A stretch of 64,000 bases of DNA from Prochlorococcus sp. MIT 1341 (lineage in GTDB: Bacteria; Cyanobacteriota; Cyanobacteriia; PCC-6307; Cyanobiaceae): the NCBI RefSeq assembly GCF_034092415.1, contig NZ_CP139304.1, forward strand, positions 1,162,001-1,226,000, in the 5' to 3' direction. The position numbers and the translations under genes are program-made. The notes beneath the pieces are model-generated. The model worked only from the letters and a program-made list of their open reading frames with translations. It did no database searches and had not been told where the DNA came from. The first letter of the stretch is position 1; the number at the start of each line of letters is the position of its first letter. Below, one piece after another: positions 38,083-40,526 of the stretch.

Positions 38083-38946
38083 ATGTTTAATACTGAAGGT
38101 CCCATCTTTATGCAAAGCCGACGTGATCCAAAAGGCTGCAGTATTGGAATCATTGGTGTTCCATATGATGGAACAACTTCCTTTAGAGCTGGCACACGTT
38201 TTGGGCCAGCAGCTATACGTGAAGTAAGCACATCCCTAGAAACCTATTGCCCTCAACTCAAGCTAGATCTAGAAAATATTGATTATGCAGATCTTGGGTC
38301 CCTAGACATTCCAATAGGCAAGCCAAAAAAAGTTATCAATCTAGTCAAAAAAGGGACAAAAAAAATAATTAGAAATGGTCTCAAACCACTTATTTTAGGA
38401 GGAGAGCACTCTATTACTTCTGGAGCAGTTCAAGCAGTGGCAAACTTTTATCCAGATGTTATTATGATTCAGTTGGATGCACATGCAGACCTTCGAAATC
38501 AATGGCAAAAAACAAAATATAGTCATGCATGTGCAATGCGGCGCTGTCTTGATGTATTGCCAAGCAAGCAACTAATTCAGGTAGGTATTCGCAGTGGAAC
38601 AAAGGAAGAGTTTGACGAAATAGACCTACAAAAAAGAATGGTATCAACAGAAAACGGAGAACTTGCAAATTCTCTTACGAAAGCACTAAGTCCTCACAAA
38701 GATAAGCCTATCTATTTAACAGTCGATCTGGACTGGTTTGATCCAAGTGTATTGCCAGGAACTGGAACACCTGAACCCGGAGGTTTTTATTGGAATGATT
38801 TCGCCTCTTTATTAGATGTAATTCGTCAATACAATCTTATTGCCGCTGACGTTGTTGAACTTGCACCTGAACTTGATCCTTCAAAATGCAGTAGTGTTCT
38901 GGCAGCAAAAGTAACAAGAAGTTTGATAATGCTCCTCAGTACATAA
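38083..38946 (+). CDS. speB: Agmatinase-type ureohydrolase
   Basis: A binuclear manganese ureohydrolase of the arginase/agmatinase fold, 287 residues. The metal motifs are LILGGEHSIT, QLDAHADLRNQ and TVDLDWFDPSVLPGTGTPEPGG. Agmatinase activity (agmatine to putrescine plus urea) is inferred from the neighbour speE and from speA in the window. Related cyanobacterial ureohydrolases act on guanidine or guanidinobutyrate, and these motifs do not separate the options. It converges on the Cys-rich gene at 39018. Confidence 0.9.
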   Translation: MFNTEGPIFMQSRRDPKGCSIGIIGVPYDGTTSFRAGTRFGPAAIREVSTSLETYCPQLKLDLENIDYADLGSLDIPIGKPKKVINLVKKGTKKIIRNGLKPLILGGEHSITSGAVQAVANFYPDVIMIQLDAHADLRNQWQKTKYSHACAMRRCLDVLPSKQLIQVGIRSGTKEEFDEIDLQKRMVSTENGELANSLTKALSPHKDKPIYLTVDLDWFDPSVLPGTGTPEPGGFYWNDFASLLDVIRQYNLIAADVVELAPELDPSKCSSVLAAKVTRSLIMLLST

Positions 38947-39017
38947 CTATCTATCGTTAAAGGTAAACAACAAATCACCATCTCTATGTATTAAGGAAAA
39001 CTCAGATATACCTATGT

Positions 39018-39275
39018 TCAGATCATTGAAAACTCGTCTTCTTTGGAAGAACTAGAAAAAGAACGTCCCAAGTCAAGCTGTCTCTCAATAATCGGCGAAG
39101 AAAAATGCTCCTGAACACTTGGTAAAGATGGAGACTTTTGTGTCCAATGGTGACAGAAAGCAAATTTCGCCAGATCACGGGTAACGGTCAGTTGTCTTAA
39201 ACGACACCAACCTTCAGCTGGGTTTTGGCCAGGTCCACAATGACAACAGGTGCTGCAGCAGTCGTTCCTAGGCAC
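39018..39275 (-). CDS. Small Cys/His-rich protein, probable metal-binding
   Basis: An 85-residue protein that I do not recognise by name. A GTG at 39275 is preceded by GGAGG with a 7-nt spacer (minus strand), a strong ribosome binding site that decides the start over the longer TTG frame at 39332. Right after the start comes a dense motif DCCSTCCHCGPGQNPAEGWC, then FCHHWTQ about 17 residues later. Eight cysteines and several histidines in the first 45 residues suggest zinc or Fe-S binding. The C-terminal half is Ser-rich and polar. It is divergent from gcvT (139 nt). Confidence 0.72.
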   Translation of the reverse strand: MPRNDCCSTCCHCGPGQNPAEGWCRLRQLTVTRDLAKFAFCHHWTQKSPSLPSVQEHFSSPIIERQLDLGRSFSSSSKEDEFSMI

Positions 39276-39413
39276 TGAATATCCTCCAAGGCACCAAGGA
39301 TAAAGAAAGTTCGAAGATCTATCTTGACTCAACAGAAAATCTCCGGCTTTCCTTCAGGTTTGTCAAAACCAATTTCAACAGCCCATAAACCTGCCAATAC
39401 GGTAAACGCATCC

Positions 39414-40526
39414 ATGAAACTCAACAAAACCGCCTTATTTGAAGACTTCAGCAATGCTGGCGCTCGAATGGTTCCCTTCGCTGGATGGGAAATGCCCATC
39501 CAATTCTCAAGCTTGGTAAATGAACATCATGCAGTTCGGAATCATGGAGGGATGTTTGACATCTCTCATATGGGCATAGTCAGGCTTCAAGGAGTAAACG
39601 CAAAAGATCACCTACAAAAGCTCGTGCCCACAGATCTCAACAGAATTGGTCCTGGAGAAGCTTGCTACACAGTTCTGCTTAACAATAGTGCTGGAATTAT
39701 TGATGATTTAATCATTTATGACCTGGGGGTCGATAAGGATGACAACGAGAATCTATTACTGGTTCTTAATGCAGCCTGCACAGATAACGATATTTCATGG
39801 ATCAAAAAACATTTAGAGCCAGCTAATATCTCTATAATTGATGAGAAAAAAACAAACCTTTTAATAGCAATACAAGGCCCCCTTGTACAAAAAAATCTTG
39901 AAAGATTTACTGAGCAACCACTCTCAACCCTTCCAAGATTTGGCCATAGATATCTAAACATCAATTTAGAAGGTGAACCTCCAAACAGTACTTTTATTGC
40001 CAGGACAGGATATACAGGTGAAGACGGGTTCGAGATTCTTATCAATGCAAATTCAGGAAAAAAATTATGGCAAGAATTAAGAAAAGAAGGGTTTACCCCT
40101 TGTGGATTGGGTGCGCGTGACACCCTTCGCCTGGAAGCAGGAATGCTTCTTTATGGGAAAGATATGAGCAACAAAACCACGCCATTTGAAGCAGGCCTTG
40201 GCTGGCTAATTCATCTTGAGATGTCCAGTGATTTCGTTGGTAGATCGGCCCTCGAACAGCAAGCTAAAGAAGGTCTCAAAAAACGTTTAGTAGGAGTTGA
40301 ATTGCAAAGCAAAGCAATCGCAAGAAGTGGATATCCTCTGCTTTCTAACAACAACAAAATTGGCCATATAACAAGTGGCAGCTGGTCACCCACTCTTGAG
40401 AAAGCAATTGGTCTTGGTTACGTACCTATTGAGTTCTCCAAAGTTGACACCTATATGGATATTGAGATCAGAGGGCAGCATTTTCCAGCAAAAGTGGTCA
40501 AACTCCCATTTTATAAACGGAAATGA
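39414..40526 (+). CDS. gcvT: Glycine cleavage system T protein (aminomethyltransferase)
   Basis: Transfers the one-carbon unit from the GcvH-bound methylamine to tetrahydrofolate, releasing ammonia. The 370 residues from the ATG at 39414 match the family; the open frame extends 30 codons upstream but homologues begin with KLNKTALFEDF or similar. Motifs include RMVPFAGWEMPIQF, GMFDISHMG, NAACTDND, RTGYTGEDGFEI and LGARDTLRLEAGMLLYGKDM. It is physically separate from gcvH-gcvP. aspS follows 44 nt downstream. Confidence 0.97.
   Translation: MKLNKTALFEDFSNAGARMVPFAGWEMPIQFSSLVNEHHAVRNHGGMFDISHMGIVRLQGVNAKDHLQKLVPTDLNRIGPGEACYTVLLNNSAGIIDDLIIYDLGVDKDDNENLLLVLNAACTDNDISWIKKHLEPANISIIDEKKTNLLIAIQGPLVQKNLERFTEQPLSTLPRFGHRYLNINLEGEPPNSTFIARTGYTGEDGFEILINANSGKKLWQELRKEGFTPCGLGARDTLRLEAGMLLYGKDMSNKTTPFEAGLGWLIHLEMSSDFVGRSALEQQAKEGLKKRLVGVELQSKAIARSGYPLLSNNNKIGHITSGSWSPTLEKAIGLGYVPIEFSKVDTYMDIEIRGQHFPAKVVKLPFYKRK

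Follow-up and report, generated by a model that had tools for sequence, protein, structure and literature searches.

A conserved four-cysteine protein encoded between speB and gcvT in picocyanobacteria is probably a metal-binding protein

Results

An 85-residue reading frame lies between speB and gcvT

The window analyzed here is the whole 64,000-nucleotide stretch of the Prochlorococcus sp. MIT 1341 genome, and coordinates without a locus name refer to it. An open reading frame of 85 residues with a GTG start occupies 39018-39275 of the minus strand, in agreement with the original prediction. NCBIfam profiles name speE (polyamine aminopropyltransferase) and speB, on the plus strand and convergent with this frame, on one flank, and gcvT followed by aspartate-tRNA ligase, divergent from it, on the other, which also bears out the predicted adjacency to gcvT. 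The product is referred to as the Cys4 protein, and the features of the locus are as follows.

38083-38946, plus strand: speB (agmatinase), convergent with the Cys4 gene; named by NCBIfam; found at 46/48 loci
39018-39275, minus strand: coding sequence of the Cys4 protein, 85 aa, GTG start at 39275, stop codon included; homologues found
39144-39155, minus strand: codons for Cys41-His42-His43-Trp44, of which C41, H43, and W44 are invariant (alignments A1 and A4; coordinates by hand from the start codon)
39204-39206, minus strand: codon for Cys24, invariant (A1 and A4; by hand from the start codon)
39246-39248, minus strand: codon for Cys10, invariant (A1 and A4; by hand from the start codon)
39255-39257, minus strand: codon for Cys7, invariant (A1 and A4; by hand from the start codon)
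39283-39287, minus strand: Shine-Dalgarno GGAGG, read from the sequence, 7 nt 5' of the GTG
39297-39302, minus strand: -10 element TATCCT, from aligned upstream regions (TANNNT in 47/47)
39337-39355, no strand assigned: block GAAGGAAAGCNGNAGATTT (minus-strand reading) between the two divergent genes, from the upstream alignment
39414-40526, plus strand: gcvT, divergent from the Cys4 gene; named by NCBIfam; found at 47/48 loci

The GGAGG stands exactly 7 nt 5' of the GTG, as had been noted. An SD-like 4-mer was present within the usual stretch at 29 of 47 Cys4 loci, so the strong Shine-Dalgarno of the window copy is not universal, and the start codons of the homologues vary among ATG, GTG, and TTG. 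When the upstream regions were aligned, with the start codons of six loci assigned by hand, TANNNT occurred at one column in 47/47 sequences (runner-up column, 3/47), at a distance of 20-33 nt from the start codon of the Cys4 gene (21 nt in the window). The block at 39337-39355 lies beyond this -10 box and is kept in most of the aligned upstream regions; it may be part of the gcvT leader or a regulator site. An in-frame TTG at 39324 is a possible alternative start of gcvT. An Rfam scan of 38900-39500 with matches up to E 5 returned only one microRNA and one snoRNA family, both far under the cut-offs.

Gene order was compared at 48 named loci, whose titles read Prochlorococcus in 30 cases, Synechococcus in 17, and Synechococcaceae in 1 (hand count). 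A divergent gcvT was found within 400 nt at 47 of them and a convergent speB within 800 nt at 46; in L107 and L125, the contig ends just past the Cys4 gene. The sole out-of-order locus is L101; on this single-cell contig, possibly a chimera, the match to gcvT falls on the other side and the other strand of the Cys4 gene (L101:206-439 and 1613-2503).

The Cys4 gene is widespread in one family and under purifying selection

A protein search (E 0.001) across 251 genomes from the GTDB family of the window's genome detected homologues of the Cys4 protein in 204, including 140/167 high-quality genomes and 54/59 genera. A 38-member profile matched 24 genomes of a 292-genome phylum sample, all from the same family; scoring covered no more than 19 candidates in each genome, so that distant relatives outside the family could be missed. 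Among named genome contigs, the window protein alone retrieved 53 stretches, none of which was confirmed, and alignment A2 gave 48 confirmed loci out of 84. Phage and plasmid collections yielded no match to the Cys4 protein, and none of 30 pattern-matching stretches in viral contigs was confirmed.

Amino-acid conservation among the homologues spans 34-74% identity. In 10/10 homologue pairs, pN was lower than pS (dS was saturated in one), and comparison of the window copy with its nearest relative (L082) gave a dN of 0.153 and a dS of 1.198, a ratio of about 0.13. The presence of homologues, this excess of dS over dN, and the conserved -10 box indicate that the frame is a genuine gene, as had been proposed from its ribosome-binding site, and the protein is presumably expressed. 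The gene is absent in 5/5 genomes of the g18 clade examined, where an intact speB adjoins an intact gcvT across only a short gap. With a GC content of about 31% at these loci and genomes of 1.6-1.7 Mb, the clade appears to resemble high-light Prochlorococcus. The Cys4 protein is a genuine, conserved, vertically inherited picocyanobacterial family.

The expectation that it belongs to no named family held, since the window protein had no match in Pfam, NCBIfam, PHROGs, or PADLOC. Scans of other members gave four Pfam families, each in 1/38 proteins (e.g., LRV_FeS, E 0.087), and nine PHROGs families, each in 1 or 2 of 46 (best, phrog_14808, E 0.0054); all were taken as chance. Profile searches of PDB sequences returned only rows at E 0.84 or worse. 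The protein was not named in the literature titles and abstract openings searched, a scope outside which lay most subscription journals and all supplements.

Four invariant cysteines define a candidate metal site

The window copy contains seven cysteines (residues 6, 7, 10, 11, 13, 24, and 41) and four histidines (12, 42, 43, and 57). The count of eight cysteines given for the first 45 residues was therefore one too high, and the three histidines (12, 42, and 43) and the clusters CC-x2-CCHC (residues 6-13) and FCHHW (40-44) were described correctly.

Conservation was read from three alignments. A1 comprises 38 of 45 proteins from loci found by similarity search and not chosen by motif (a regular expression dropped L031, a weak match with a stop). 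A3 has 46 rows, without L113 and L126 (removed by the regular expression) and the truncated L125; A4 has 47 rows, with L113 and L126 restored and without L099 and L125. The loci behind A3 and A4 were partly found with the patterns GWCRLR.. or.CHHWT.., so the conservation of these motif residues in A3 and A4 is partly built in. In A1, C7, C10, C24, R27, C41, H42, H43, W44, L51, Q66, and L67 are invariant (38/38), and A3 adds P49 to this set. The residues invariant in 47/47 rows of A4 are C7, C10, C24, R27, C41, H43, W44, P49, and L51. H42 left the invariant set upon the restoration of L113 and L126; it is F in L126, and H12 is L in L113. The remaining cysteines vary in A3: position 6 is C in 27/46, position 11 is mostly Q, and position 13 is C in 45. 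Of the proposed check of homologues and Cys/His conservation, the homologues were found widely and only four of the seven cysteines proved conserved throughout. Homologues, a translation signal, and conserved cysteines, the lack of which had been named as grounds for dismissing the prediction, are all present.

The invariant cysteines of the window copy are spaced C7-x2-C10-x13-C24-x16-C41. Because neither A1 nor A4 shows any variation at these four residues, H43, or W44, the Cys4 protein probably binds a metal, as iron-sulfur or zinc. The site would most simply consist of C7, C10, C24, and C41 with an aromatic/His shield. A c-type cytochrome was rejected as a candidate: the heme motif of these proteins is CxxCH, which is absent, and the conserved motif is C-x2-C-x-H.

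A shorter paralogue of about 50 aa is encoded elsewhere in the window's genome (G000:C1:1454249-1454389, minus strand; L175:3750-3890), and others were found in G083, G070, and G012. The Cys4 profile matched the G083 paralogue at E 2.7e-4, and the reverse search from this paralogue recovered the gcvT-side Cys4 proteins of six genomes (E 5e-4 to 4e-3). By eye, the four paralogues retain the four cysteines in 4/4, H43 in 3/4, W44 in 3/4, and H42 in 1/4, the H42 position being E, E, and Q in the other three. Their neighborhoods, also compared by eye, look different, with no shared arrangement seen, and gave no clue to function. In the window's genome, a 436-aa reading frame close to the paralogue is largely a Lys/Ala/Glu repeat (KAAERKAAEDRKAA...; L175:973-2283).

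Fold models and profile alignments point weakly to a HiPIP-like domain

The AF2 model of the full-length protein was of low to middling confidence (pLDDT 66, pTM 0.40), and that of the core of the L085 copy gave a pLDDT of 76 and a pTM of 0.52. In a Foldseek search of the PDB, the 48 rows for the full model included HiPIP at ranks 5 and 24 (E 4.3 and 8.0) and 2y8n_B at rank 9, none significant. VIA placed 2y8n_B first of eight (38 residues, rmsd 2.5, residues 5-44) with a Z of 3.2 that is under the background range quoted by the tool itself. This chain, labeled 'glycyl radical enzyme' in its row, is taken to be the HPAD small subunit. The core model gave no PDB rows in Foldseek and none for VIA to compare, which is no evidence against a HiPIP fold. 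Among BFVD folds, none of 121 rows was significant (best E 0.25), and two rows with HiPIP-like names stood at E 1.5 and 1.7. The HiPIP family PF01355 was absent among the Pfam-A matches up to E 1 in 38 Cys4 members; a real HiPIP scored E 8.6e-24 against it as a control. PF18671 (HPAD gamma) was likewise outside the matches up to E 1 in the 38 members, and the corresponding genome search matched no control genome.

Alignment by hhalign placed the four cysteines of the Cys4 protein onto those of 1hip and of a 7-sequence HiPIP profile, with a score of 15.9 for 1hip vs 10.2 for a rubredoxin control. Shuffles with the cysteines fixed reached the real score in 5/300 cases for 1hip and 4/200 for 2hip, and 14/300 column shuffles reached it for the 7-sequence profile, all three being marginal. 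The signal failed for 1isu (137/200), 3h31 (31/200), and 8z82 (27/200); the HiPIPs covered singly by shuffle were these three, 1hip, and 2hip. HiPIP was picked after the fold rows had been seen, which makes the low shuffle counts optimistic. With weak support and partly failed replication, the HiPIP likeness is a lead and no proof.

A cNBD gene is linked to the Cys4 gene in many Synechococcus-type genomes

A gene encoding a cyclic-nucleotide-binding-domain (cNBD) protein of about 130-157 aa lies between the Cys4 gene and speB, on the same strand as the former, in many genomes of the Synechococcus type (e.g., L115:4289-4684, L117:4285-4758, and L128:4226-4654, all plus strand). PF00027 was above the cut-off in all three proteins scanned (L115, E 1.3e-11; L128, E 2.1e-9; L117, E 1.4e-12), and in these (131-157 aa) Pfam matches up to E 1 included no HTH or other DNA-binding domain. 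The proteins stop shortly past the domain; their conserved C-terminal RLRxQR...Y occupies the place at which a DNA-binding domain would start.

A cNBD match (E 1e-8) was found in 115 of the 251 family genomes, 107 of which also carry the Cys4 gene and 8 of which do not (hand tally from tables, not computed). Linkage was counted in a subset of 92 listed Cys4 genomes, 83 with and 9 without a cNBD match. In all 83 for which both coordinates were listed, the cNBD gene is next downstream of the Cys4 gene on the same strand, with 65-300 nt between the match ends. Of the 32 cNBD genomes outside this subset, inspected by eye, 8 have no Cys4 match and 24 have a match with unlisted coordinates. In three of these eight (L047, L048, and L050), the cNBD gene stands beside gcvT and the Cys4 gene is absent. 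Among the named loci, some of which are cut short, a cNBD match was present in 11/17 Synechococcus-titled and 0/30 Prochlorococcus-titled ones, and the window's genome and three genus-mates had none. Given the 0/30 and the 8/115 genomes with the cNBD gene alone, neither gene needs the other everywhere. The linkage suggests a shared process; stable gene order (plain synteny) alone could also maintain the side-by-side position.

Discussion

We favor, at somewhat less than an even chance, a reading in which the Cys4 protein has one metal site, a HiPIP-like [4Fe-4S] cluster in preference to zinc, and acts in an accessory or redox-regulatory role, with the cNBD protein as its partner in many Synechococcus-type genomes. 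Cys7, Cys10, Cys24, and Cys41 would hold the metal, and Trp23, His43, and Trp44 would shield the site, which might change state or hold the fold of the protein. The conserved tail (P49-x-L51, Q66-L67) may contact a partner, for which the co-directional downstream cNBD protein without an HTH is plausible in many Synechococcus-type genomes; in the window's genome, the Cys4 protein would have to act without it. The suggestion that the protein could be a metal or Fe-S sensor is upheld in part: the invariant cysteines, H43, and W44 argue for a metal, either as Fe-S or as zinc, and the one pointer to a sensor is the cNBD linkage in part of the family, which does not extend to the window's genome.

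A HiPIP-like [4Fe-4S] mini-domain is considered slightly more likely than zinc, although a structural zinc protein is itself a serious contender that we would not quite back at even odds. Its ligands would again be the four cysteines (or C7, C10, and C24 with C41 or H43), and it would serve as an adaptor or a nucleic-acid- or protein-binding element with no redox role. Zinc is often found in small four-Cys proteins of the cytosol, and VIA listed eight rows at Z 2 or more, five of them (Z 2.1-2.2) chains of spliceosomal U2 snRNP/pre-A/B complexes, presumably zinc-finger subunits; His43 near C41 could be a ligand and the basic CRLR stretch with the invariant R27 could touch nucleic acid. However, a zinc ribbon has two CxxC/CxxH knuckles, and the sole conserved knuckle here is C7-x2-C10, C24 and C41 being single. 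The cysteine spacing also suits HiPIP-type sites, and the loss of H42 in L126 and in all but one of the shorter paralogues speaks against zinc as well.

The three extra cysteines of the window copy (C6, C11, and C13) would fit a cysteine-rich protein that lacks a fixed site and serves as a thiol/metal buffer or in thiol redox, yet exactly four cysteines are invariant, positions 6 and 11 vary as described, and the H43/W44/P49/L51 context is invariant, which makes this reading unlikely. It is very improbable that the frame is spurious or that it is a gcvT-region leader from which no protein is made. Its shortness, the varying start codon, and the incomplete occurrence of an SD-like 4-mer might suggest so, but the low pN in every pair, conservation across the whole range of identities, an aligned -10 element of its own, and the loss of the whole gene between intact speB and gcvT in the g18 clade argue against it. 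Beyond the favored [4Fe-4S] reading, we regard it as improbable that the Cys4 and cNBD proteins form a split, two-polypeptide Crp/Fnr-like switch specific to picocyanobacteria. The [4Fe-4S] cluster would then sense oxygen, redox, or iron and the stand-alone cNBD a nucleotide, and the two would jointly act on a target distinct from the customary DNA site. The sampled Prochlorococcus would have kept the Cys4 half alone, and the high-light-like clade would have lost that too.

The protein is unnamed and present in most of the sampled picocyanobacteria, among which are very abundant marine phototrophs. Its four-Cys site and neighbor gene make its role testable in laboratory strains of Synechococcus. 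Should it prove to be an Fe-S protein, the family libraries searched would have missed a small cluster protein of picocyanobacteria.

Comparison with known systems

Crp/Fnr regulators share PF00027 with the linked cNBD protein, from which their helix-turn-helix is missing. As lineage-restricted hypothetical proteins, the signature proteins of Clade C (marine Synechococcus/Prochlorococcus) in the available part of Gupta and Mathews 2010 (PMC2823733) resemble the Cys4 protein. The eight Clade C proteins of its Table 5b, which the low B/A (high-light) Prochlorococcus group lacks, share the loss pattern of the Cys4 gene; compared by length only, they have 102-273 aa and none matches its 85 aa (PMC2823733).

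Some glycyl radical enzymes are described as having small subunits that adopt a HiPIP-like fold and carry a [4Fe-4S] cluster (PMC12358834, PMC12590467). They include HPAD gamma, BSS beta/gamma (PMC12590467), and MASS beta/gamma, the cluster of MASS beta being ligated by Cys32, 35, 51, and 86 (PMC12358834), and the top VIA row, 2y8n_B, presumably falls in this group. They serve anaerobic enzymes as accessory subunits, whereas the Cys4 gene has no linked enzyme of that kind.

HiPIPs are described as soluble proteins that carry electrons in bacteria, photosynthetic ones and others. No export signal is visible in the Cys4 protein sequence. The HiPIP motif around the last cysteine is G-[YW]-C-x2-[FYW]; the G-[YW] pair that precedes this cysteine differs from the Cys4 rows shown, where none stands before C41. 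Past the last cysteine, 1hip reads C-x2-W-T, as does the Cys4 protein, in which C-x2-W is invariant. The four cysteines follow the same order in 2hip and the Cys4 protein, with similar spacing: C-x2-C-x13-C-x15-C in the former and C-x2-C-x13-C-x16-C in the latter.
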